NCBI GenBank assembly: GCA_937875885.1
Contig: CALEIO010000160.1
Coordinates: forward strand, 1 to 11,678
Source of the DNA: an uncultured Clostridia bacterium
GTDB lineage: Bacteria; Bacillota; Clostridia; Oscillospirales; Acutalibacteraceae
DNA length: 11,678 bases
Direction: 5' to 3'
The position numbers and the translations under genes were made by a program. The notes beneath the pieces are model-generated. The model did no database searches. It had not been told where the DNA came from and was given only the letters and a program-made list of their open reading frames with translations. Shown here in pieces: positions 1 to 11,678 of this stretch. Numbering within the stretch: the first letter of the stretch is position 1; each line of letters starts with the position of its first letter.

Positions 1-73
1 TAGTGAGTTTTTTTGCAGCACGGGATTTGAAGCGCTTTATATCTCCGTGTGTATCGCCGGTAACATAAATCAC
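1..73 (-). CDS. Calcineurin-like metallophosphoesterase, N-terminal fragment (runs off window start)
   Basis: Reading the minus strand from a GTG at 73-71 gives 24 codons beginning MIYVTGDTHGDIKRF, then running off the edge. The GDTHGD block is the first metal-binding motif (GDxHG) of calcineurin-like phosphoesterases, which use a two-metal centre to cut phosphomonoesters or phosphodiesters. A TAAGGAGT ribosome binding site lies 8 bases upstream of the GTG and supports the start. The gene diverges from the carboxypeptidase gene on the plus strand. The substrate cannot be told from so short a piece, and the remaining metal motifs lie outside the window. Confidence 0.75.
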   Translation of the reverse strand, partial: MIYVTGDTHGDIKRFKSRAAKKLT

Positions 74-106
74 GGTAAAAACTCCTTAGAAAATAGCTTA
101 AAGTAA

Positions 107-135
107 TTGAAATAGCCTTTTGACTATTGTATAAT
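107..135 (+). promoter_or_regulatory. Predicted sigma-A promoter for the D,D-carboxypeptidase gene
   Basis: TTGAAA (107-112) and a perfect TATAAT (130-135) are separated by 17 bases. Transcription would start near 142, leaving a leader of about 70 bases before the ATG at 212. This is a near-consensus housekeeping promoter. Confidence 0.7.
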
Positions 136-153
136 GTTATATTATCACAGCAA
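126..153 (-). promoter_or_regulatory. Predicted sigma-A promoter for the phosphoesterase gene
   Basis: On the minus strand, TTGCTG (153-148) and TACAAT (131-126) are 16 bases apart, upstream of the GTG at 73. The -10 box shares bases with the -10 region of the plus-strand promoter at 107-135, so the two divergent promoters would overlap. The match is moderate and from sequence only. Confidence 0.4.
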
Positions 154-211
154 ATGATATATGTCAAAGGTATGAGTATATACATTTATAGATTTGAGAG
201 GATACAGAGAT

Positions 212-1540
212 ATGAAAAAGTTTAAGAGATTTTTATCTTTTATTTTTGTGTTTGTGCTGATGGCAAGTGTTGTTATCTCCACAAGTGCGATTACTTACGA
301 TTACAGCAAAATTGAAAGAACGCTTGAGTCCGATACGATTCTTCTTGTCAATATGGACACAGGCATCCCTGTTATAGAGAAAAATGCAGAGAAAGTAAGA
401 TTTCCTGCTTCTCTTACTAAGATTATGACATACATTATCGCAATGGAAAATATTGAGGATGTACATAATACAAGAGTTAAAATCCGCCAGGAAGTGCTAA
501 ATCCCCTTTTGGGTACAGGCAGCAGTATGTCAGGTCTTGATTATAAAGTAGGTGAGAAGGTAACAGTTATCGACCTCCTTCATTGCCTTATGATTACCTC
601 CGGTAACGATGCTGCTCTGGTGCTTGCAGATTACGTTGGTAATGGCGATACAGAAAAGTTTGTTGATATGATGAATGCAAAAGCTAAGGAGCTTGGCTGT
701 AACGATACGCATTTTGTGAATCCTCACGGACTTCACGATGAAGAGCACTACACTACAGCATACGATTTGTATAAGATAACATCCTATGCAATGACGCTGC
801 CTTTGTTTTCTGAAATAACAAACACAGCTACATATTATTGCGAGGGTGATGATTATCCCCTTGTAACAACAAACTTCCTCATTGACGTTAACCGCGGCGG
901 TGAGTACTACTACACCTATGCACAGGGTGTTAAAACAGGTACAACCGACGAAGCGGGCAGATGCCTTATCACCACAGGTATTGCTGACGGATATGCATAT
1001 ATGTGTATCTGTATGGGTGCTCCCTATGAAGGCTCTGTAAACAACGGAGCTATGCTTGATGCAAGAGAAATTCTTCGTTGGGCACTGCTTAACCTTGAAC
1101 TTGCACGAATGATTACTCCCGAAACTCCTGTTTGTGAGGCAGATGTCAACTTCTCTTCATCCGAAGATAAGATTCTTCTTTATCCTGCAAACACAGTTAA
1201 TGCAATTCTTCCCAAGGAGAGAAAAGAGGAGGATGTCAGAGTTGAGTCTGATATTCCCGAGTCTGTAGATGCCCCTATCGCTAAAGGCGATGTTGTGGGA
1301 AAAGCAACCGTTTACTATAAAGGTGAAGCTGTACAGACAGTTGACCTTGTAGCAGGTGAAGATATAGAAAAAAGCGCATTTGCATATTCAATGCACGTTT
1401 TCAAATCCATCCTTAACTCCTGGCAGTTCTGGCTTGCTTTTATGGTAGCCGCTGTTTTGGTGGTAGTCTATATTGTTCTTATCTCTAATGTCAGAGCCAA
1501 GAATAAAAGGCGCAGAGTAAAGAAATACAGAAGAATGTAA
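212..1540 (+). CDS. D-alanyl-D-alanine carboxypeptidase (serine type, peptidase S11 / PBP5-like)
   Basis: This 442-residue exported enzyme would remove the terminal D-Ala from peptidoglycan pentapeptides, limiting cross-linking at the outer face of the membrane. The N-terminus is a signal peptide or anchor (basic MKKFKR, hydrophobic core about 8-26). All three penicillin-binding motifs are present: SLTK with nucleophile S67 and K70, SGN at 130-132, and KTG at 241-243. A PBP5 C-terminal type beta domain (PIAKGDVVGKATVYY, about 355-369) follows. Residues about 405-425 form a membrane helix with a strongly basic tail (RAKNKRRRVKKYRRM), so the protein is anchored by a true transmembrane span rather than PBP5's amphipathic helix. 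I chose ATG 212 over the upstream in-frame TTG at 194 because GAGAGGA (196-202) sits 9 bases before 212. It has its own promoter and terminator. Several S11 paralogues (DacA, DacB, DacF) exist in Firmicutes and I cannot say which this is. Confidence 0.93.
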   Translation: MKKFKRFLSFIFVFVLMASVVISTSAITYDYSKIERTLESDTILLVNMDTGIPVIEKNAEKVRFPASLTKIMTYIIAMENIEDVHNTRVKIRQEVLNPLLGTGSSMSGLDYKVGEKVTVIDLLHCLMITSGNDAALVLADYVGNGDTEKFVDMMNAKAKELGCNDTHFVNPHGLHDEEHYTTAYDLYKITSYAMTLPLFSEITNTATYYCEGDDYPLVTTNFLIDVNRGGEYYYTYAQGVKTGTTDEAGRCLITTGIADGYAYMCICMGAPYEGSVNNGAMLDAREILRWALLNLELARMITPETPVCEADVNFSSSEDKILLYPANTVNAILPKERKEEDVRVESDIPESVDAPIAKGDVVGKATVYYKGEAVQTVDLVAGEDIEKSAFAYSMHVFKSILNSWQFWLAFMVAAVLVVVYIVLISNVRAKNKRRRVKKYRRM

Positions 1541-1550
1541 TTTACAGACA

Positions 1551-1586
1551 GCAGTCGCAACTTATATTGCGGCTGCTTCTTTTATT
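1551..1586 (+). terminator. Rho-independent terminator of the carboxypeptidase gene
   Basis: GCAGTCGCAA (1551-1560) pairs with TTGCGGCTGC (1567-1576) through 10 pairs including one G-T wobble. The loop is 6 bases, followed by TTCTTTTATT. It lies between convergent genes, and the stop codon of the minus-strand gene (1564-1562) is in the loop, so the 3' arm doubles as coding sequence for that gene's last residues. Confidence 0.85.
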
Positions 1587-2185
1587 GAGAAATCGGGCAG
1601 GAAGTGGGAGAGTACCTGTATATATGTAAACCCTTGTGAACAAAGCTCCCTTATTCCGTTAACACTTATTCCGCAAGGATAGTCATATTCCTTATTGTAT
1701 TCCGTATTCAGCACATCCCAGGGACACGCTATCGGTTTTATATATGGATATTCTTCATCTTCTGTAAGTTGTCCGTTGCACAAGGATACAATGGGAATGT
1801 ACATTGTTTTATTGTCTGTTTCCAATGTTACAGACAGAGTTTCTGTAATCTTTGTCAGTTCTTTGTAGAAAGAGTCTGAATAGTTGCTGACTTCCGATGC
1901 TTCAGAGTGAACTCCTTTGATTTTGTTGTACAGCATATTGTTTGCGCAAAGGGCAATCAAAGCCTTTTTGCTTTCTGTGTTATCATCTTCTTTGAGGTGC
2001 TCCATAGCATTGCTGATGATTATATCAATCTCTTCTTGTGTGAAATCAGCTGTCTTGTTGACAGTTGTGTGTTCAGGTTTGTTGTGGCTTTCTTTTCTTT
2101 GTGGGATTGATCTGATTCCTGCAGTTACGGGGATAAAAGCAATCAGCATACACAGGGATATAATCCATAAAATTACTTTCTTCAT
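1562..2185 (-). CDS. Small exported SpoIID/LytB-fold protein, probably degenerate
   Basis: The 207-residue product starts with a hydrophobic export signal or anchor (about 3-23). The rest follows the order of SpoIID-domain landmarks. ESKKALIALCANN (71-83) lies where the family has EALKAQAVAARTY. ITETLSVTLETDNKTMYIP (113-131) and SLCNGQLTEDEEYPYIK (134-150) match the stretch ending in SGGxT...PYL. ACPWD (153-157) matches SPWD/SPGD. GISVNGIRELCSQGFTYIQV (172-191) matches the GMSQYGAxxMAxxGxxYxxIL ending. SpoIID proteins are lytic transglycosylases that trim glycan strands, chiefly during engulfment in sporulation. Here the protein is far shorter than classical SpoIID (about 340 residues), the glutamate of the GEMP motif is not clearly present, and the GHGVG block is reduced to YPCGIS. 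I infer a divergent, possibly inactive homologue. The ATG at 2185 is preceded by GGTGA. Identification rests on pattern matching by eye. Confidence 0.6.
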   Translation of the reverse strand: MKKVILWIISLCMLIAFIPVTAGIRSIPQRKESHNKPEHTTVNKTADFTQEEIDIIISNAMEHLKEDDNTESKKALIALCANNMLYNKIKGVHSEASEVSNYSDSFYKELTKITETLSVTLETDNKTMYIPIVSLCNGQLTEDEEYPYIKPIACPWDVLNTEYNKEYDYPCGISVNGIRELCSQGFTYIQVLSHFLPDFSIKEAAAI

Positions 2186-2234
2186 AAATTCACCGTTTTT
2201 TCAGAATTGGAAATTTTATTTAGCTTCAAAAACC

Positions 2235-2263
2235 TTGACATTGCATTTTGTTTGGAATAAAAT
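2235..2263 (+). promoter_or_regulatory. Sigma-A promoter for the acidic-tail membrane protein gene
   Basis: A consensus TTGACA (2235-2240) and TAAAAT (2258-2263) are spaced by 17 bases. The start point near 2270 leaves an AT-rich leader of about 105 bases before the ATG at 2375, in which I see no convincing regulatory fold. Confidence 0.75.
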
Positions 2264-2374
2264 ATTTAATGTATAAGTATGATATTATATATACTGATGA
2301 AGAAGGAAAAGTATGTATATTTATATTATCTTTCCGTTCGGTATATCACAAGCTAAACTGAAAAGGAGTACATA

Positions 2375-3853
2375 ATGAGATCAATCAATTCGTTAATTAA
2401 ATGGATATTGTTCGTTCCGGTTTGCCTGATGTCAGTGGTTATTGCTGTTCTCAATGGCTTAATGCCGGATACAGTTCCCGCTTTCTTTGCAACCGACCAG
2501 AATGGTATAGCAGAGATTATAGCTTTCTCTGTACTGGGACTGTTTTTGGTGTGTTTCGGAATTTCTTTGTTTGACAGAAAAACATCACCTGTACATTTGC
2601 TGAAAAAGAATCCTTACTGTGGTGTTGCAGCAGTTGCATCTGCACTTGCTATGGCTGCTTGTGCCGCATTTGAACTTACACAGATGATAAATGCAGATTC
2701 CATCGAGGTTGTGTCTGTGATGACAATTCTTTTCACAGCTGTCAGCGGTGTAACAATGCTCTATATCGGTCTGAATCATTTCACAGGCATCAACACAGCA
2801 AAGAACATCTCTGTGCTGTATCTGTCACTTCCTTTGTGGTGCGGTGTTCACCTTGTCGACAGATTCCTCAAGCACACAGCTTCTCCTGTTGCAGCTGCAG
2901 ATACATTAGATCTTATAATGTTTGTAGCAATGGCAATGTTCTTTATCAATGTTGCAATGATTCATGCGGTTATACCCGGCAAGAATGCAGTTAAATCTGC
3001 AGTTAACTTTGGTTTCCCCACAGTAATTGTAGCTTTGGTATATGGCCTTTCACTTATTTTTGCTGAGGTTAATTCCGGTAGCTTCAATTTTATTAATCTT
3101 CTTCCCGCATTTGTTTACGTGCTGATTTCTCTCTATGCAATAGGCTTTACTGTAGAGCTTTCTTTCCGCTCCAAGACAACTGATGAGCAGATTATTCTTG
3201 AAGTAGAAGAGGAGAGCGGCGCAGCAGACGAATACTATAATGACGAAGAATCTGACGAGGAATATGCTGAAGAAATTGCAGCTGATTCTGACGTTCAGAG
3301 TGATGAAGAGTATGCTGATGAAACAGAGGATTCAGAAGAATTCTTTGAAGAAGATGCTCCTGCTTATGTTCACGAAAACGTTCCTGTTGCTCCTGCGGTA
3401 GTTCGTATTGCACAGGATACAGCAGATTCCGAAGATGATTTATCTGCAGATGAGCTTTACAGAGTTGCTCAGCAGAAAGACAGAAAGAACACCGAGGATA
3501 TTCCTCAAACCTATTTTACAGGAAGTGACGACGAAGTGATTATTGATGGCAATCCCGAACTGAATGTTCCTATGGTAAAAGGCTCAGGTGGTTCTGACGA
3601 TAAACCCAAAGGTCCTACAACAAGAGAAGCTATTATGTATGAGGATGATGATTTCATCCTTTCTGTAGATAGCCACGATGATAAGGATCCTGAGTTTGAC
3701 GAGGATGAAGATATTTCCGCATTTATCCTTGAAAAGCAGGAAATGCCTGAGGTAGAGCAGCAGACCAATAAAACTTACGAAGAGCGTATGGATGAGATTG
3801 ATAAGCTTATTATCAGCCTCCAGGGCGACGACGAACAGACCGAAAACGTATAA
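2375..3853 (+). CDS. Hypothetical polytopic membrane protein with long acidic cytoplasmic tail
   Basis: I do not recognise this 492-residue protein. Residues 1-262 carry about eight hydrophobic segments (roughly 9-29, 44-65, 82-100, 110-131, 144-162, 178-200, 212-231, 237-260). The remaining ~230 residues are hydrophilic and very rich in Asp/Glu. They contain a repeated SDEEYA block (293-298 and 309-314) and several DDD/EEE runs, with no Cys and little hydrophobic content, so probably disorder. The end, KTYEERMDEIDKLIISLQ (about 466-483), looks like a short amphipathic helix and may be a docking peptide. The start is firm: AAAAGGAG (2361-2368) is 6 bases before ATG, behind a consensus promoter. 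A terminator follows the stop, so it is mainly a single-gene unit, with possible read-through into the LRR-dockerin gene. A scaffold or protein-recruiting role would fit the layout, but this is speculation. Confidence 0.85.
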   Translation: MRSINSLIKWILFVPVCLMSVVIAVLNGLMPDTVPAFFATDQNGIAEIIAFSVLGLFLVCFGISLFDRKTSPVHLLKKNPYCGVAAVASALAMAACAAFELTQMINADSIEVVSVMTILFTAVSGVTMLYIGLNHFTGINTAKNISVLYLSLPLWCGVHLVDRFLKHTASPVAAADTLDLIMFVAMAMFFINVAMIHAVIPGKNAVKSAVNFGFPTVIVALVYGLSLIFAEVNSGSFNFINLLPAFVYVLISLYAIGFTVELSFRSKTTDEQIILEVEEESGAADEYYNDEESDEEYAEEIAADSDVQSDEEYADETEDSEEFFEEDAPAYVHENVPVAPAVVRIAQDTADSEDDLSADELYRVAQQKDRKNTEDIPQTYFTGSDDEVIIDGNPELNVPMVKGSGGSDDKPKGPTTREAIMYEDDDFILSVDSHDDKDPEFDEDEDISAFILEKQEMPEVEQQTNKTYEERMDEIDKLIISLQGDDEQTENV

Positions 3854-3858
3854 TCTTA

Positions 3859-3892
3859 AAAAGGGCGGATACTCCGCCCTTTTATGTTTTTT
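3859..3892 (+). terminator. Strong Rho-independent terminator after the membrane protein gene
   Basis: AAAAGGGCGGA (3859-3869) and TCCGCCCTTTT (3873-3883) form a perfect 11-pair stem with a 3-base loop. After ATG (3884-3886) comes a run of six T (3887-3892). It ends only 18 bases before the next start codon (3911). Confidence 0.92.
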
Positions 3893-3910
3893 AGCCAAAC
3901 GGGTGACTTT

Positions 3911-5323
3911 ATGAATAAGAGAAACAGAATTAAAAAAATTATTTCCGCTTTGCTTCTGATGTTAATTATTTCATCTTTGGTTACGCTGAATGTTTCTGCT
4001 ACTTCAGATTTTGAGATTACAGATGGCATATTGACTTCTTACAAAGGCAAGTCAAAAAATGTAACAATTCCCGATGATGTGTATTATATTGCAGATTCTG
4101 CTTTTGCAGGCAATACCTCTGTTCAGTCGGTAGCTCTCAGTAATGTAACTGCCATCGGTAATTATGCTTTCAGTAATTGTACAGCTCTGAAAACCGTAAC
4201 AGGGTACGATGGACTTGTTTCCTGCGGTGGCTATGCTTTCTTTGGCACTCCTTTCCTTAACAACAGAACTGAACAGGACCTTGTTATGGGTTCTGTCCTT
4301 GTGGATACCAATGCAAAAGACAACTATACGGTGCCTTCTTCCGTAACCTCTATAGCACCTTATGCTTGTGTAAATAATGAAGCTATCACATCGCTTACAA
4401 TCGGCGACAATGTTTTGTCAGTAGGTGAGGGTGCTTTCTGGAATTGCACAGGCTTAAAGACAGTTTCCGTCAGCGGTAATGTTTCTTATATAGGCGGATA
4501 TGCTTTTGTGGGTACAAAGTATCTTGATTCCCTGAAAGATGAATTTGTTATTTTGGGAAACGGCATACTTGTGGATGCAAACACAACTACAGCAGATGTT
4601 GTTATTCCTTCAACTGTAAAGCAGATAGGTGCTGCTGCTTTTGAGTCCTGCAAAACTCTGAAGAGTGTGGTTATAAACACAAAGGTTACTGCAATCGGTA
4701 AACGTGCCTTTTATAACTGTACTGCCTTGCAGACAGCAGATATTCCTGATAGCATTGTCTCTATCGAAGACGAAGCTTTTTATAATTGCACTGCCCTCAA
4801 ATCTGTTTTAATTCCAGAAACTGTGAAATTCCTGGGTGAAAGCGTGTTTCTTGGATGCAGTGTACTCAAAACCGCACAGGTTAATATCAACATCCCTTTG
4901 AGTGCAGGACTTTTTGCAGACTGTCCTAAACTTGAGTATGTTTATATTTCATCAAATCCTGTTGCAGTAGAGAACTATGCTTTCTATGGTTGCAGTAAAC
5001 TCAAGGGAATAACCTTACCTGATTCAGTTGCTTTCATAGCTGACAATGCGTTTAGTGGATGCAGCAAGCTTTCAGTATGGTGCAATTCTGATTCCTATTC
5101 TGCAGATGCTTTGAAAAAGCAGGGGGTTACTGTTTGTCAGACAGGCGATGCTAACGAAGACGGAAAAGTTAACGTACGAGATGCAACACAGATACAAAAA
5201 GCTGTTGCAGGTCTTGTAACACTTGAATTCAGCGCAAATATGAAAGCGGACGCAGATTTCAATGGTGAAATCAATGTGCGAGATGCAACAAGAGTACAGA
5301 AAAATCTTGCAGGACTTGACTGA
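3911..5323 (+). CDS. Secreted BspA-like leucine-rich-repeat protein with C-terminal type I dockerin
   Basis: The 470-residue precursor has a clear signal peptide (basic MNKRNRIKK, hydrophobic 10-24, likely cleavage near VSATS at 28-32). Most of the rest is LRR_5/BspA-type repeats with the recurring pattern 'x-IPxSVxxIxxxAFxxCxxLKxV' (for example IPDSIVSIEDEAFYNCTALK). A spacer type with GTxxL...ILVDxN occurs twice, near 115-135 and 202-222. Residues 411-470 are a type I dockerin. Loop 1 has D413, N415, D417, N421 and D424; loop 2 has D447, D449, N451, N455 and D458. These are the calcium ligands of the two duplicated F-hand loops, each followed by a VRDATxxQK helix. Dockerins bind cohesins on scaffoldin proteins, so this would be a non-catalytic component plugged into a cellulosome-like or surface assembly. 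The ATG at 3911 is preceded by GGGTGA (3901-3906); an in-frame ATG at 3884 lies inside the terminator and is unlikely. No promoter of its own is evident. Confidence 0.93.
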   Translation: MNKRNRIKKIISALLLMLIISSLVTLNVSATSDFEITDGILTSYKGKSKNVTIPDDVYYIADSAFAGNTSVQSVALSNVTAIGNYAFSNCTALKTVTGYDGLVSCGGYAFFGTPFLNNRTEQDLVMGSVLVDTNAKDNYTVPSSVTSIAPYACVNNEAITSLTIGDNVLSVGEGAFWNCTGLKTVSVSGNVSYIGGYAFVGTKYLDSLKDEFVILGNGILVDANTTTADVVIPSTVKQIGAAAFESCKTLKSVVINTKVTAIGKRAFYNCTALQTADIPDSIVSIEDEAFYNCTALKSVLIPETVKFLGESVFLGCSVLKTAQVNINIPLSAGLFADCPKLEYVYISSNPVAVENYAFYGCSKLKGITLPDSVAFIADNAFSGCSKLSVWCNSDSYSADALKKQGVTVCQTGDANEDGKVNVRDATQIQKAVAGLVTLEFSANMKADADFNGEINVRDATRVQKNLAGLD

Positions 5324-5367
5324 TGGCTTTATTTTGTAAATAAATTTGTATATTGTGCAATTAATCA

Positions 5368-5396
5368 TTGACTTTAGTCTGATTTAGTGATATCAT
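5368..5396 (+). promoter_or_regulatory. Sigma-A promoter driving the T-box leader and thrS
   Basis: TTGACT (5368-5373) and TATCAT (5391-5396) are 17 bases apart. Transcription would begin near 5403, about 18 bases before the base of T-box stem I. No strong terminator separates it from the LRR-dockerin gene ending at 5323. Confidence 0.75.
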
Positions 5397-5420
5397 TTTT
5401 CTTAATTAATATTGAACTTT

Positions 5421-5654
5421 GACGAGGACAACGTCTGTAATAATTCCCCTACAGAGAGCAGATACAAGGCTGGAATATCTGCGGCAAGAATTTTTATGGA
5501 ATACCACCTCCGAGTCTGTGCAGGAAATGGCACAGCGGCCAGCACCGTTATATGCTCAAAGGGTACTTTTGTGCCGAAGTTGGGTGGAACCACGACGTAT
5601 TTTATCGCCGTCCCGACATACCGTTATTGGTCTGTCGGGCGGCTTATTTTTTTC
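5421..5654 (+). promoter_or_regulatory. T-box riboswitch, threonine-specific (tRNA-Thr sensing leader of thrS)
   Basis: This transcribed leader senses uncharged tRNA-Thr and lets polymerase through to thrS when charging is low. The base of stem I pairs GAC/GAGG (5421-5427) with CCTC/GTC (5507-5516), the asymmetric CGA suggesting the usual K-turn. Conserved AGAGAG lies at 5453-5457 and nearby. The distal hairpin is GCAGATA (5458-5464) with TATCTGC (5476-5482) around CAAGGCTGGAA. The specifier loop holds GAATACCA; the specifier codon is ACC (5503-5505, Thr) followed by the usual purine. The T-box proper, GGGTGGAACCACG, is at 5582-5594; its TGGA bases would bind the free tRNA 3' end. GGG (5582-5584) can pair with CCC (5612-5614) as antiterminator, competing with the terminator at 5607-5643. 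Threonine specificity matches the gene downstream. Confidence 0.95.
5607..5654 (+). terminator. Regulated terminator of the T-box leader
   Basis: GCCGTCCCGACATACC (5607-5622) pairs with GGTCTGTCGGGCGGC (5629-5643), with one bulged T and one mismatch, around a 6-base loop. TTATTTTTTTC follows. The 5' arm shares the CCC needed by the antiterminator, giving the mutually exclusive folds expected of a T-box. Confidence 0.92.
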
Positions 5655-5670
5655 TGAAAGGAAGTTTCCT

Positions 5671-7614
5671 ATGATTAATGTTGAACTTAAAGGCGGAGTT
5701 GTTAAGGAGTTCGAAAACAACACAACTGCCGCTGATGTAGCAAAATCTCTCGGCGCAGGCCTTTACAAAGCTGTTTGTGCTTGCAAAATTGATGGCGCAC
5801 TCTGTGATCTGCGCACACCTCTCACAGCAGATTGCAAACTTGAGCTTCTCACTTTTGATGATGAAGAGGGTAAGCGTGCATTCTGGCACACATGCTCCCA
5901 TGTGCTTGCTCAGGCAGTAAAGAATCTCTATCCCAAGGCAAAGCTTGGCATCGGTCCTGCAGTTGATAATGGCTTCTACTATGACTTCGATGTAGAAAAG
6001 CCCTTTACACAGGAAGACCTGGAAGCAATCAAAAAAGAAATGAAAGCAATCGTTAAGTCCGGCATCGAACTTGAGAAGTTTGAGCTTGAGCCTGCAGAAG
6101 CAGAGAAGTATCTTGCTGATATGGGCGAAGAATACAAGGTTGAGCTTGTTCGCGAGCATGCAGGTAAGGGTGAGAATATCAGCTTCTACAAGCAGGGTGA
6201 TTTTGTAGACCTTTGTGCAGGCCCTCACCTTATGAATGTTTCTGTTCTCAAAGCTTTCGAGCTTACAGCTTGCACAGGTGCATACTGGAGAGGTGATGCT
6301 TCCAAGGCACAGATGTGCCGTGTGTACGGTACTGCATATCCCAAGGCTTCCCAGCTTGAAGAGTATCTTGAGATGATGGAGCAGGCTAAACTCCGTGACC
6401 ACAACAAACTTGGCAGAGAGCTTGAGCTGTTCACAACATCCGAGCTTATCGGTCAGGGTCTTCCCATTCTTCTTCCCAAGGGTGCAAGAATCATTCAGCT
6501 CCTTCAGAGATTTGTTGAAGACGAAGAGCAGAAGAGAGGTTGGCTCCTTACAAAGACTCCCTATATGGCAAAGTCTGACCTTTATAAGGTTTCAGGTCAC
6601 TGGGATCACTATCAGGACGGTATGTTTGTAATGGGTGACGAGGAAGTGGACAAAGAAGTGTTTGCACTTCGTCCTATGACTTGTCCTTTCCAGTATCAGG
6701 CATATCTCAACCGTGGTCGTTCCTATCGTGATCTTCCTCTCAGATACAACGAAACATCCACACTCTTCAGAAATGAAGCAAGTGGTGAGATGCATGGTCT
6801 TATCCGTGTAAGACAGTTTACAATTTCCGAGGGTCACCTTATGTGTACTCCCGAGCAGCTTGAAGAAGAGTTCAAGAGCTGCCTTGAGCTTGCTGTTTAT
6901 ATGCTCAAGACACTTGGTCTTTATGAGGATGTTTCCTTCCGTTTCTCACAGTGGGATCCTGCAGATACAGAGAAGTACATCGGTACTGTAGAGCAGTGGG
7001 ATGAAGCACAGGGCGTAATGGGCAAAATCCTCGACAACCTTGGTATTGAATACAAAATCGGTATCGGCGAGGCTGCTTTCTATGGTCCCAAGCTTGATAT
7101 CCAGATCAAGAACGTATATGGTAAAGAGGATACTCTCATCACAATTCAGGTTGACCAGCTTCTTGCAGAGAAGTTTGGTATGGTATATGTAGACAAGGAT
7201 GGCAGCAAGAAGAATCCTTACATTATTCACCGTACATCCATCGGTTGCTACGAACGTACACTTGCTCTCCTTATCGAGAAGTACGCTGGTGCATTCCCCA
7301 TGTGGCTTGCTCCCACACAGGTTAAGATTCTGCCTATCGCAGACAGACATCACGACTATGCCTGGGAAGTTAAGAAGGCTCTCGAAGCAAAGGGTATGCG
7401 CGTAGAGATGGACGATCGTTCTGAAAAAGTTGGTTATAAGATTCGTGAAGCACAGCTTGAAAAAGTTCCCTATATGATTATTCTTGGTGATAAGGATATC
7501 GAGAACAACACAATTTCTGTTCGTGCCCGTAAGGCAGGTGACCTTGGTGCTATGACTCTCGACGAGTATATTGCACGTGCTCTCGAGGAAATCGAATCCA
7601 AGGTTATCAACTGA
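5671..7614 (+). CDS. thrS: Threonyl-tRNA synthetase
   Basis: This 647-residue cytoplasmic class II synthetase charges tRNA-Thr with threonine using ATP. The domains are in standard order. The TGS domain spans about 1-62. The N2 editing domain, which removes mischarged serine, has HxxxH at H73/H77 and DLCAGPH with C182 and H186. The catalytic core has motif 2 around FRNEASGEMHGLIRVRQF (366-383) and motif 3 around HRTSIGCYERTLALLIEKYA (520-539). The anticodon-binding domain starts near 547. The zinc ligands that recognise the threonine hydroxyl are present as C338, H389 and H520. Length is normal for full-length bacterial enzymes (about 640). ATG 5671 has GAAAGGAAG 7 bases upstream and starts the TGS domain; an open frame reaching back to 5419 is only the T-box leader. 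Expression is under the upstream T-box, and a second gene follows after 10 bases. Confidence 0.98.
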   Translation: MINVELKGGVVKEFENNTTAADVAKSLGAGLYKAVCACKIDGALCDLRTPLTADCKLELLTFDDEEGKRAFWHTCSHVLAQAVKNLYPKAKLGIGPAVDNGFYYDFDVEKPFTQEDLEAIKKEMKAIVKSGIELEKFELEPAEAEKYLADMGEEYKVELVREHAGKGENISFYKQGDFVDLCAGPHLMNVSVLKAFELTACTGAYWRGDASKAQMCRVYGTAYPKASQLEEYLEMMEQAKLRDHNKLGRELELFTTSELIGQGLPILLPKGARIIQLLQRFVEDEEQKRGWLLTKTPYMAKSDLYKVSGHWDHYQDGMFVMGDEEVDKEVFALRPMTCPFQYQAYLNRGRSYRDLPLRYNETSTLFRNEASGEMHGLIRVRQFTISEGHLMCTPEQLEEEFKSCLELAVYMLKTLGLYEDVSFRFSQWDPADTEKYIGTVEQWDEAQGVMGKILDNLGIEYKIGIGEAAFYGPKLDIQIKNVYGKEDTLITIQVDQLLAEKFGMVYVDKDGSKKNPYIIHRTSIGCYERTLALLIEKYAGAFPMWLAPTQVKILPIADRHHDYAWEVKKALEAKGMRVEMDDRSEKVGYKIREAQLEKVPYMIILGDKDIENNTISVRARKAGDLGAMTLDEYIARALEEIESKVIN

Positions 7615-7624
7615 CAGGAGTACT

Positions 7625-8398
7625 ATGCCATATAAAAGATACGATTTAAGAAATAAATATAATCGTCGGGGAAGAAGAGTAAGTGAGAGCGCGGCATTCA
7701 AAACATTTATGATTTTCTTTATGCCTGTTCTCATTGCGGCTGTTATTTTTCTGGGAATCTTTCTGGGATATAAAGCAGAGATCAACAGCCGCCCCAAACT
7801 TCCAACGCCTGCAACTGCAGACGAAGCAAAAACGGTTTCCGATGAAGAGTTGCTTCATATTGTCAACGAGAATTATCCTCTTGAAGAGGATTACGTGCCG
7901 GAGCTTGTTGCTTTTGGTGATGTGAAGATTGCAAAGATTGCTCAAAAAAGTCTAGATTTGCTTGTGAAGGATGCGGCTTCAGAGGGAATTACCATAACCG
8001 TCAAGAAAGGCTATGTTTCTTTCAGCGAGCAGGAAGAGTTGTACAAAGAAACTTTTGCTGTAATTAAGAAAGAAAACCATTATTCCGAAATTAAAGCGGA
8101 GTCTGAAACTATGAAGGTTTGTCCCCGTGGAGGTTGCAGCGAAAGCCAGACAGGTTTACTTGTAACTTTTGCAACTGATGAAAAGGGAAAATTCCAGCAG
8201 ACCGAAGCAGGTAAGTGGCTTGAGAAATATTCTGTGAATTACGGATTTGTACTCCGATACCCCGCAGAAGAGGAAAGTAACACAGAAATGGCCTACGCGC
8301 CCGATGTTTACAGATATGTGGGCGAGGAGAATGCCCTCAATATGCGTCGATACGATATGACACTTGAGGCATATTCTTACCATGTGAACATCCGATAA
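7625..8398 (+). CDS. Membrane-anchored VanY/DacB-type (peptidase M15B) pseudoenzyme
   Basis: The 257-residue protein has a basic cytoplasmic start (1-27), one membrane helix (about 28-48) and an outside domain. Its landmarks follow VanY-type D,D-carboxypeptidases: KGYVSFSEQEELY (128-140) for SGYRSxxxQxxLY; SESQTGLLVT (172-181) for SEHQTGLAVD; WLEKYSVNYGFVLRYP (198-213) for the WL..ha..yGFilRYP block; and YAPDVYRYVG (224-233) for YEPWHYRYVG. Every zinc ligand is replaced: His to S174, Asp to T181 and the C-terminal His to V228. The catalytic Glu is A225 and the SGYRS Arg is V131, while the surrounding framework is kept. The sequence is full length with no frameshift, so this looks like a maintained non-catalytic homologue, perhaps a peptidoglycan-binding or regulatory protein (inference). 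Its ATG lies 10 bases after thrS with AGGAG (7616-7620), so it is probably cotranscribed from the T-box-controlled promoter. Confidence 0.85.
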   Translation: MPYKRYDLRNKYNRRGRRVSESAAFKTFMIFFMPVLIAAVIFLGIFLGYKAEINSRPKLPTPATADEAKTVSDEELLHIVNENYPLEEDYVPELVAFGDVKIAKIAQKSLDLLVKDAASEGITITVKKGYVSFSEQEELYKETFAVIKKENHYSEIKAESETMKVCPRGGCSESQTGLLVTFATDEKGKFQQTEAGKWLEKYSVNYGFVLRYPAEEESNTEMAYAPDVYRYVGEENALNMRRYDMTLEAYSYHVNIR

Positions 8399-8409
8399 TA
8401 TAATAATTT

Positions 8410-8429
8410 TGTATGATTTATACATTTTT
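8410..8429 (+). terminator. Weak candidate terminator of the thrS operon
   Basis: TGTAT (8410-8414) and ATACA (8420-8424) form a short 5-pair stem with a 5-base loop, followed by five T. It is AT-rich and weak, but it is the only hairpin with a T-run between this operon and the rpmE promoter. Confidence 0.35.
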
Positions 8430-8439
8430 GCAGTATTTT

Positions 8440-8489
8440 TAAATAAATATAAAAAATAACTTGCAATTTCAAATGTTATGTAGTATAAT
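8440..8489 (+). promoter_or_regulatory. rpmE promoter with UP-element-like A/T tract
   Basis: TTGCAA (8461-8466) and a perfect TATAAT (8484-8489) are spaced by 17 bases. The 20 bases before the -35 are A/T only apart from the last (runs of A and T at 8436-8458), resembling an UP element of strong ribosomal promoters. Transcription would start near 8496, leaving a leader of about 38 bases. Confidence 0.8.
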
Positions 8490-8533
8490 TCATCTGTTAC
8501 TATATCGGCATCAGCGAAAGAGGAGAACAAGAA

Positions 8534-8734
8534 ATGCAGGAGAATATCCATCCTAACTATCAGCAGACTACTATTACCTGCGCTTGCGGCAACGTTATTG
8601 AGACAGGCTCCACAAAGCCCAACCAGCGTGTTGAAATTTGCTCAAAGTGCCATCCTTTCTTCACAGGAAAGCAGAAGCTCGTTGATACCGGCGGACGCGT
8701 AGACAGATTTAAGAAGCGTTACGGCATCGAGTAA
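8534..8734 (+). CDS. rpmE: 50S ribosomal protein L31 (zinc-containing type)
   Basis: The 66-residue protein is the usual size for bacterial L31, which bridges the large and small ribosomal subunits. It starts [20 protein letters not shown]. It keeps all four zinc-binding cysteines, C16, C18, C36 and C39 (CxC and CxxC), marking the zinc-binding 'C+' form rather than the zinc-free paralogue induced under zinc starvation. The C-terminal [11 protein letters not shown] is family-typical. AAAGAGGAG (8517-8525) lies 8 bases before the ATG. It has its own strong promoter and a strong terminator that ends just short of the yigZ-family gene. Confidence 0.97.
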
Positions 8735-8751
8735 TAGTATAGACACCACTT

Positions 8752-8793
8752 GGCGGCACTTTCATTCGGAAGGGCCGCCTGTTTTTTTCTTTT
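8752..8793 (+). terminator. Rho-independent terminator between rpmE and the yigZ-family gene
   Basis: GGCGGC (8752-8757) pairs with GCCGCC (8774-8779), and after one bulged A, CTTTC (8759-8763) pairs with GAAGG (8769-8773). The loop is 5 bases. TG and seven T (8782-8788) follow. The T-run leads straight into the ribosome binding site of the next gene. Confidence 0.9.
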
Positions 8794-8800
8794 AGGAGTG
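8793..8800 (+). promoter_or_regulatory. Ribosome binding site that decides the TTG start of the yigZ-family gene
   Basis: TAGGAGTG includes GGAG at 8795-8798, 8 bases before the TTG at 8807. The in-frame GTG at 8798 overlaps this site and so cannot be served by it, and no ATG is available near the conserved N-terminus. Confidence 0.65.
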
Positions 8801-8806
8801 AAAACT

Positions 8807-9442
8807 TTGGCTTCTGATTATATAACTATCGAAAAAGAGGCTGCTCCCGAGTTTGTGGAGAAGCGCTCTCGTTTTATCGGTTACATTAAACCTGTCACCA
8901 CAGAGAAAGATGCTCTGGATTTTATCAATTCAATACGTGCAAAGCATTGGGATGCTACCCATAATGTTTATGCTTATGTGCTCAGAGAGCAGAACCCCTG
9001 CCGTTATTCTGACGATAACGAGCCACAGGGCACTGCAGGTATGCCTGTGCTTGATGTTATCCGCAAAAGCGGTATTACCGATGTCTGCATTGTGGTAACC
9101 CGTTATTTTGGCGGAATTCTTTTAGGTGGCGGTGGACTTGTCCGTGCATATTCTCATAGTGCATCTCTTGCCGTTGAGGCAGCAGGTCTTATCCAGATGC
9201 GCAGCTGCAGTATGTGCAACCTTGAGTGTACCTACAATCAGTATGGTAAACTCTCGTCACTTGTGCCTGAAAATGGCGGAACAGTTGATAACACAGATTT
9301 TTCTGATGTAGTTAAACTTGATTTTCACATTCCCGTTGCAGAGCTTGAAAGACTCAGGAAACTTGTAACAGACACCACATCGGGTACTGTTACCATTGAA
9401 TCAGAAACAACAGAGTATTTCCCTCACAAGTATTCAAAGTAA
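8807..9442 (+). CDS. yigZ: YigZ/IMPACT family protein (UPF0029)
   Basis: The 211-residue cytoplasmic protein has an N-terminal IMPACT/UPF0029 domain (about 1-125) and a C-terminal DUF1949 domain (about 135-200). Diagnostic blocks are KRSRFIGYI (19-27), AxHNVYAY-like WDATHNVYAY (48-57), DDNEPQGTAGMPVL (69-82) and VVTRYFGGILLGGGGLVRAY (96-115). Family members (YigZ in Escherichia coli, YvyE in Bacillus, IMPACT in eukaryotes) are widespread. The eukaryotic protein regulates the Gcn2 kinase, and the precise bacterial role is unsettled. Length agrees with the family (about 205-215). A TTG start is chosen from the ribosome binding site at 8793-8800. There is no room for a promoter between the rpmE terminator and the start, so expression probably relies on terminator read-through. 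Confidence 0.93.
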   Translation: MASDYITIEKEAAPEFVEKRSRFIGYIKPVTTEKDALDFINSIRAKHWDATHNVYAYVLREQNPCRYSDDNEPQGTAGMPVLDVIRKSGITDVCIVVTRYFGGILLGGGGLVRAYSHSASLAVEAAGLIQMRSCSMCNLECTYNQYGKLSSLVPENGGTVDNTDFSDVVKLDFHIPVAELERLRKLVTDTTSGTVTIESETTEYFPHKYSK

Positions 9443-9448
9443 ATATTG

Positions 9449-9479
9449 ACTGCAATGCTTCAGTCAGCATTTTTGCAGT
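9449..9479 (+). terminator. Hairpin after the yigZ-family gene, likely terminator
   Basis: ACTGCAA (9449-9455) pairs with TTGCAGT (9473-9479), and TGCT (9456-9459) with AGCA (9466-9469), leaving three bulged T and a 6-base loop. ATTTTGTG follows. The weak T-run makes it less certain than the hairpin at 9491-9531. Confidence 0.55.
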
Positions 9480-9490
9480 ATTTTGTGTAT

Positions 9491-9531
9491 AAAATGAATT
9501 TTTCTGCTTTTTTTGCAGGGAAATTCATTTT
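9491..9531 (+). terminator. Second, near-perfect hairpin upstream of dnaG
   Basis: AAAATGAATTTTTCTGC (9491-9507) pairs with GCAGGGAAATTCATTTT (9515-9531) over 17 positions, two being G-T wobbles, around a loop of seven T. The 3' arm ends in a T-run continuing to 9533, and the mirror arrangement gives A/T tracts on both sides. It lies 60 bases before dnaG, with no good promoter after it, so it could also act as a leader element. Confidence 0.65.
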
Positions 9532-9591
9532 TTCATCGTATATATAATTGAATTTGTTTTATATTGATGTTTTCTGAAAGGAGGAGTTGTT

Positions 9592-11349
9592 GTGGCATTA
9601 CCTGATTATTTTTTGCAGGAGCTGAAATCCAGATGCGATATATCAGATGTTGTGTCTTCATATGTTAATCTGAAGCGACGAGGACGTAACCTTGTTGGTC
9701 TTTGTCCCTTCCATTCTGAAAAAACTCCTTCCTTTAACATTTATCCCGAAAACGGTTCCTTTTATTGCTTTGGTTGCGGCACAGGCGGTGACGTAATCAC
9801 CTTTATAATGAAGATTGAAAATCTTGATTATATCGAAGCTGTCAGATTCCTTGCACAGCGTGCAGGTATGGAGCTTCCCGAAAACTCCTACGATGATGGA
9901 GTTGCAAAACTCAGAAGCCGAATTCTTGAAGCAAACAGAGAAGCAGCCAGATTTTATTATTCACAGCTATATACCCCGGCAGGCTCTCACGCTCTGGCAT
10001 ATCTCCACGGACGTGCTTTGTCAGACAATACCATCAAGCGTTTCGGTTTGGGATATTCTCCCGCAAGTCGTTTTGCTTTGTGCGACCATCTCAGGTCAAA
10101 AGGCTTCAATGATAATGAGATTGTTTCTGCAAACCTTGCTTTTAAGAGTAATGACGGAAGACGTATTGTTGACCGATTTGCAGACCGAGCAATGTTTCCT
10201 ATTATAGATTTGCGAGGTAACGTAATAGCCTTTGGTGGGCGTATAATGTCCGACCAGAAGCCAAAATATCTGAATACATCAGATACTCTTGCGTTTAAGA
10301 AAAGTGCAAATCTTTTCTCATTGAACAATGCAAAGAATACAGGGGAGCGCACTCTGATTCTCTGCGAAGGATATATGGATGTAATCGCACTTAATCAGGC
10401 AGGTTTCCGCAATGCTGTAGCTACTTTGGGTACAGCCCTTACCTCCGAGCAGGCCTTGCTTATGAAGCGGTATGCCGATGAGGTAATTATCTGCTACGAT
10501 GCTGACGAGGCAGGACAAAAAGCCACTGCCCGTGCTATTTCAATCCTCAGGGATGCAGGAATTGTCATCCGTATAATTACAATTCCCGATGGCAAAGACC
10601 CCGATGAGTACATCCGTAACAAGGGAGATAAGGGTCCCGCGGCTTTTAAGAATATCCTTGAAAACAGCGGTAATGATGTTGAATACAGACTTTTTAAGTT
10701 AAAGCAACGTTACGATATATCACGACCCGACACAAAGGTAGCTTATATGACTGAAGCACTAAAGGTTATTGCTTCCCTTGAAAGCGCTGTGGAGCAGGAT
10801 ATATACATTTCAAAACTTTCGGCTGAACTTAATATAGAAAAGATTTCTATTGCCGAAGACCTGAAAAAGCTTCGCAGAAAAACCACAAGCACCAAAGAAA
10901 GACGGGAATTTGTACGGCTTTCAGAGGAGCTTTCGGGTGTTAAGGATAAGGTGAACACAGAAAAATCAAAGAACACCAGGGCTGCAAAGGCAGAAGAAAT
11001 GCTCATTGCATATCTCGTGTTCAATAATGATATGGCAGGGGTTGCCGCAAGCAAGATATCTCCTGATGATTTTGTAACAAGATATAATGCTGATCTGTAC
11101 AGATATATTCTCTCCAAAATTGATGAAGGTGTATCTCCGCAAACAACAGTCAGCAGAGATTTTACAGCACAGGAAGTCTCAAAATTCTATTCAATCTTAT
11201 CGTCATATAATTCATTGGCTGCAACACGTCAGGCTATGGATGAATATATTGATACAATCCTAAGTGAAAAAACAAAACTCACGCCGGATAAAGTTTCCGA
11301 GATGTCTCCCGAAGATATCCTCAGAAGCATTAAGAATAAAAAGAAATAA
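9592..11349 (+). CDS. dnaG: DNA primase
   Basis: The 585-residue enzyme makes the RNA primers that start Okazaki fragments and works with the DnaB helicase at the fork. The CHC2 zinc finger has C38, H41, C59 and C62 (CPFH and CFGC). The catalytic core carries the KYLN/FKK region (about 225-237). The TOPRIM domain has glutamate E259 in EGYMDV, the DxD pair D303/D305 in YDADEAG and DPDE at 336-339. The C-terminal third (about 440-585) is poorly conserved, as expected for the helicase-binding domain. Length is typical (about 580-610). The start is GTG at 9592, behind an excellent AAAGGAGGAG site. It is followed after 35 bases by the primary sigma factor gene, the classic macromolecular-synthesis pairing. 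Confidence 0.97.
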   Translation: MALPDYFLQELKSRCDISDVVSSYVNLKRRGRNLVGLCPFHSEKTPSFNIYPENGSFYCFGCGTGGDVITFIMKIENLDYIEAVRFLAQRAGMELPENSYDDGVAKLRSRILEANREAARFYYSQLYTPAGSHALAYLHGRALSDNTIKRFGLGYSPASRFALCDHLRSKGFNDNEIVSANLAFKSNDGRRIVDRFADRAMFPIIDLRGNVIAFGGRIMSDQKPKYLNTSDTLAFKKSANLFSLNNAKNTGERTLILCEGYMDVIALNQAGFRNAVATLGTALTSEQALLMKRYADEVIICYDADEAGQKATARAISILRDAGIVIRIITIPDGKDPDEYIRNKGDKGPAAFKNILENSGNDVEYRLFKLKQRYDISRPDTKVAYMTEALKVIASLESAVEQDIYISKLSAELNIEKISIAEDLKKLRRKTTSTKERREFVRLSEELSGVKDKVNTEKSKNTRAAKAEEMLIAYLVFNNDMAGVAASKISPDDFVTRYNADLYRYILSKIDEGVSPQTTVSRDFTAQEVSKFYSILSSYNSLAATRQAMDEYIDTILSEKTKLTPDKVSEMSPEDILRSIKNKKK

Positions 11350-11384
11350 GATTAACATTGTGTGTAACAGAAAGGAAATTTATT

Positions 11385-11678
11385 ATGGCAGGTTCTATTC
11401 AGGATAAAAAATCAATTATAAGAGAAATTATGGAACTTGGTAAATCCAAGGGCCAGCTTACAAACAAAGACATTCTTGACGCTATCGGTGAGATCGATTT
11501 TGATCCCGAACAGCTCGAAAAACTCTATGATAGCCTTGAGAGTCTTGGTATTGAAATTGTAGAAGATAAAATATTATTTTATAATTGGAACAATAAGAAG
11601 ATAGTGTTATCTAGTGGTAAAGATATTACATACAATAAAAATTATTTAGGGGTACCAACATTAATTAATTATGTTCCG
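11385..11678 (+). CDS. rpoD: Primary sigma factor RpoD/SigA, N-terminal part (runs off window; tail anomalous)
   Basis: The frame opens at ATG 11385 with AAAGGA (11371-11376) 8 bases upstream and stays open to the last base (98 codons). Residues about 11-62 match sigma-70 region 1.1, the acidic helical domain that masks DNA binding by free sigma (LTNKDILDAIGEIDFDPEQL at 25-44, then YDSLESLGIEIVED at 48-61). The position after dnaG supports rpoD. From about residue 63 the sequence (ILFYNWNNKKIVLSSGKD and onward) no longer resembles the acidic linker or region 1.2 of sigma factors. The seven leucines before this point use CTT or CTC; the four after it all use TTA. The call is firm for the first 62 codons only. 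Confidence 0.8.
   Translation, partial: MAGSIQDKKSIIREIMELGKSKGQLTNKDILDAIGEIDFDPEQLEKLYDSLESLGIEIVEDKILFYNWNNKKIVLSSGKDITYNKNYLGVPTLINYVP
11568..11678 (+). other. AT-rich stretch unlike its surroundings, in frame with rpoD
   Basis: I count 25 G or C in the 98 bases 11581-11678 (about 25%), against 26 in the 60 bases 11461-11520 (43%). Codon choice switches to TTA, ATA and AGT. I see no inverted repeat, direct repeat, intein block A or group II intron 5' end at the junction. It could be a mobile insertion cut by the window edge, a lineage-specific domain, or a misassembly. Confidence 0.55.

Follow-up and report, generated by a model that had tools for sequence, protein, structure and literature searches.

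In one review (PMC7299287), chimeric contigs were described as arising where shared k-mers link the assembly graphs of related species. The window analysed here, the whole stretch of 11,678 nucleotides from an uncultured Clostridia bacterium, was found to resemble the chimeric metagenome contigs of that review in two respects: sequence that appears to come from two genomes stands in one contig around a short shared word, and a sudden change of composition is followed by a short foreign stretch at the contig end. The window was found to differ from them in that the review is mainly about closely related species, whereas its two sides look unrelated, and in that its two gene pieces happen to share a reading frame.

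Two protein families are represented at this contig end. The RpoD/SigA family (sigma-70 region 1.1, PF03979) was found to be matched by the window in residues 1-61 and in the gene order dnaG-rpoD, whereas everything past residue 61 differs from it and is foreign. From the FtsQ/DivIB family (POTRA_1, PF08478) the window contains a fragment only, equivalent to residues 104-140 of a database protein of 252 aa (P0060), and the transmembrane start, the POTRA domain and the C-terminal domain of a complete FtsQ gene were all found to be missing. We regard the AT-rich sequence that ends the sigma-factor gene as almost certainly an artefact of assembly or library preparation and not biology, and we hold with high confidence that the contig end is a chimera formed at a short word, in the assembly graph or in the library.

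The left side of the window was found to be ordinary Ruminococcus-like chromosomal DNA, with dnaG and the start of rpoD at its end. The 585-aa ORF at 9592..11349 on the plus strand, which we take to be dnaG (DNA primase), adjoins rpoD upstream and was found to be 89% identical to the DnaG of the nearest relative (locus L001 of genome G001). The window was collinear with contig C3 of G001 from 26 to 11569 in two blocks at 76% DNA identity, the alignment ending at 11569, except for 1764-2114, which was too diverged for a match. The dnaG-rpoD part was matched in 89 of the 100 genomes of the genus of G001, and by bit score none of them was nearer than G001 itself (77%).

The 5′ end of rpoD (11385..11567, plus strand) was found to contain region 1.1, which places it among the housekeeping sigma factors RpoD. 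The Pfam model PF03979 matched residues 8-62 of the frame (E 3.9e-13), and codons 1-61 showed 82-90% identity with the eight nearest relatives, in each of which the alignment ended at residue 61. The conservation of region 1.1 up to residue 61-62, which an earlier note on this DNA had described, was thus upheld. The rpoD homology ends at 11567-11569. Regions 1.2-4 of RpoD were absent from the same frame within the window, the homology ending at residue 61 and the window 111 bases further on. The start of rpoD was located by script in 78 of 80 related loci; the open frame was longer than 300 aa in 73 of these 78 and ran to the end of the locus in the remaining five, so that interruption of rpoD is not usual in this group.

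Past the switch, the codon directly after IEIVED in the window was found to be AAA, and from there onward neither the DNA nor the protein resembles rpoD. The leucine codons change from CTT/CTC (7 of 7) before the switch to TTA (4 of 4) after it, as the codon list confirmed. The sudden change in protein pattern and base composition that had been reported after region 1.1 was likewise borne out by the alignments of the relatives and by the GC content; the fall in GC stood, but the figure of about 25% did not, the last 111 bases of the window being 22.5% GC. The rpoD frame was indeed found to stay open, for 37 codons up to the window end and not for the 36 counted before.

The open frame was also considered for its coding value. 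When the tail was shuffled 20,000 times at the mononucleotide level, the rpoD frame stayed open in 1.3% of cases, and it was the only stop-free frame among the six over 11561-11678. This low rate and the single stop-free frame make the tail look coding, with which the protein search later agreed. The frame is open across the join since the tail, itself coding sequence, was attached to rpoD in frame, and this agreement of frames is probably due to chance.

The tail past the join (11568..11678, plus strand, in the frame of rpoD; 109-111 bases) was identified by a protein search, run with the last 40 residues of the frame against 5.8 billion proteins. Among proteins of about 54-171 aa this query gave no candidate, and the identity emerged only once proteins of about 180-570 aa were admitted. 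A total of 72 proteins were then found at E ≤ 10, of which 71 lay at E ≤ 3.2e-5 (best E 2.8e-17). These homologues were 178-261 aa long and were spread over many contigs, and PF08478 (POTRA_1) was listed for 70 of the 72. The protein P0060, whose longest contig has 8,287 bases, was found to match 40 of 40 query residues at 100%. It contains a confirmed POTRA domain (PF08478) at residues 36-102, the shared IEIVED at residues 98-103 and the tail equivalent at residues 104-140, so that the tail is internal to its gene and stands just past the POTRA domain. A profile built from 11 tail homologues without P0060 scored 80.6 bits on window residues 50-98.

Judged by its homology to proteins with an FtsQ-type POTRA domain, the tail encodes part of an FtsQ/DivIB-type protein (POTRA_1, PF08478). 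The NCBIfam FtsQ models matched P0060 weakly (best E 0.0034, far below the cut-off), and for this reason the naming stops at FtsQ/DivIB-type. The tail alone (38 residues) gave nothing against Pfam, PHROGs and NCBIfam, and the FtsQ alignment found no relative in PDB or among the viral contigs. With the 98-residue frame, weak matches were found to phrog_7383 (E 0.02), phrog_2391 (E 0.062) and phrog_13180 (E 0.22) in PHROGs, as well as to MPN337 (E 0.0066) and two Erm models (E 0.017 and 0.1), all of which were taken as chance; the other matches of this frame in the same model searches were sigma-factor models. Two weak matches in PDB (best E 0.044) were set aside.

At the join, a 21-base word was found (11549..11569, plus strand) which codes (x)IEIVED(K/N). 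A single relative also contains it in rpoD (the sequences of L003 and L099 are identical at this place), followed by C instead of the A of the window. Across the switch the window reads LGIEIVEDKILFYNWNNKK / ESLGIEIVEDKILFYNWNN and P0060 reads LNIEIVEDKILFYNWNNKK / FGTLNIEIVEDKILFYN / GTLNIEIVEDKILFYNWNN, and the residues IEIVED directly upstream of the switch are common to the RpoD of the window and to P0060. The RpoD of the eight nearest relatives was found to contain (I/V)EIVED followed by N (seven of the eight) or T (one of the eight), and to continue through an acidic linker into the DDPVKVYLKEIGRVPLL part of region 1.2. The earlier note had considered that the anomaly would disappear if close relatives carried the linker of the window directly before region 1.2; the eight nearest carry this ordinary acidic linker instead. 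The readings of P0060, of the window and of the eight relatives place the switch in, or at the end of, the shared six-residue word.

The word IEIVED was found to be present in 3 of the 72 tail homologues. The sharing at the join was observed at the protein level, and at the DNA level on the rpoD side only. The 21-base word is probably present, in full or for the most part, in the DNA of P0060, since IEIVEDK stands at the same place in that protein. If the Asn codon before IEIVED in P0060 is AAT and the other codons agree with those of the window, the common word would be 21 bases long. Common short-read metagenome assemblers use 21 as their smallest k.

A chimera at this word would have been formed as follows. 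Bases 1 to about 11567 come from a Ruminococcus-like bacterium and the bases from about 11568 from an ftsQ/divIB-type gene, most likely that of another bacterium with AT-rich DNA. The join would lie inside a stretch of some 18-21 bases that codes IEIVED(AA) and is present in both genes, and a short-k assembly graph would cross between the two genomes at this shared word. Template switching at such a word during library preparation would be an alternative route with the same outward look. In either case we infer that the crossing took place in the computer or in the tube, not in the cell.

The origin of the two sides from two genomes is suggested by the comparison with G001, with which the left side is collinear. 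P0060 gave no match in G001 at E ≤ 1e-10, and G001 was found to carry an FtsQ-type match of its own (a frame of 472 aa), so that the tail, judged by this relative, is not a rearranged ftsQ of the host. A search of P0060 against 398 genomes of the phylum of G001 gave 0 matches at E ≤ 1e-10, which shows little as it had no positive control. Of the four options that the earlier note had listed for the open frame, the contig join was the one favoured by the ftsQ-type tail and by the IEIVED shared at the switch, and the other three found no support.

Among the alternatives, recombination in the cell survives best and is still very improbable. It would have fused the start of rpoD to an ftsQ fragment while a working rpoD is kept elsewhere in the genome, and the frame that stays open across the rpoD-ftsQ join would suit it. 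However, a short word common to both genes lies at the join, which is the usual pattern of artefacts; the tail is a fragment from the middle of a gene, and rpoD stands at its usual place after dnaG. The tail motif LFYNW was also found in none of the 57 proteins obtained with the 98-residue query (admitted length about 54-171 aa). The narrower form of this idea, in which a real recombinant allele holds the start of rpoD in frame with an ftsQ fragment of a distant bacterium and a working rpoD lies elsewhere, is held to be less probable still.

An in-frame domain fusion, in which region 1.1 and another domain would make a decoy or a second sigma-like protein, is considered to have a negligible chance. 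The single open frame is as such a fusion would have it, but what follows the join is a piece of FtsQ beginning only past the POTRA domain, and the gene is the syntenic rpoD, which in the eight nearest relatives carries the ordinary linker followed by region 1.2. A second member of such a fusion was not found with the 98-residue and last-40-residue queries within their protein length limits.

The insertion of a mobile element into rpoD, self-removing or captured, is equally far-fetched, for the sudden change of composition at the switch would fit it but the tail belongs to an FtsQ-type protein whose homologues occur on many contigs, four tail patterns (two exact and two degenerate) found no match in viral contigs, and the phage and plasmid searches gave weak matches or none. 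As DNA, the tail gave matches of 24-52 bases at E 0.3 or worse, both among the best 20 of 49 phage records and among the best 20 of 106 plasmid records; as protein, it gave none in plasmids and 7 records at E 2 or worse in phages. Neither a mobile-element end nor a sigma domain was seen in the tail, and the suggestions of a self-removing or captured element and of a domain fusion were therefore not sustained. In the family of G001, 21 of 398 genomes were matched at E ≤ 0.01 over 19-44 bases each, which was read as chance without a shuffled control.

The chimeric contig end matters only as a caution, as an in-frame chimera at such a place can be mistaken for a new fusion of an essential gene with another domain. 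The warning sign is a word common to both parent genes at the switch, and the last 111 or so bases of this contig are to be trimmed ahead of annotation.

Region 1.1 joined to unrelated sequence was found in at least one other database protein (P0058; 125 aa, from a contig of 655 bases). It contains the start of RpoD region 1.1 followed by the presence of an unrelated piece resembling an amino-acid kinase (PF00696 at E 0.0013 and region 1.1 at E 0.0049, neither reaching its Pfam cut-off). On these domain matches P0058 is probably also a chimera, and its join agrees with an origin of such joins during assembly.

Two further observations concern the left part of the window. The stretch 1764-2114 was the only part of 26-11569 without a blastn match in contig C3 of G001; it lies within a 207-aa ORF on the minus strand (1562-2185), and as it is 351 bases long against 354 in the relative, it has the look of a rapidly diverged stretch and not of an insertion. 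The ORF at 3914-5320 (plus strand) was found to contain BspA-type leucine-rich repeats (PF13306) followed by the presence of a type I dockerin domain (PF00404) at its end, which is a cellulosome-style attachment domain.
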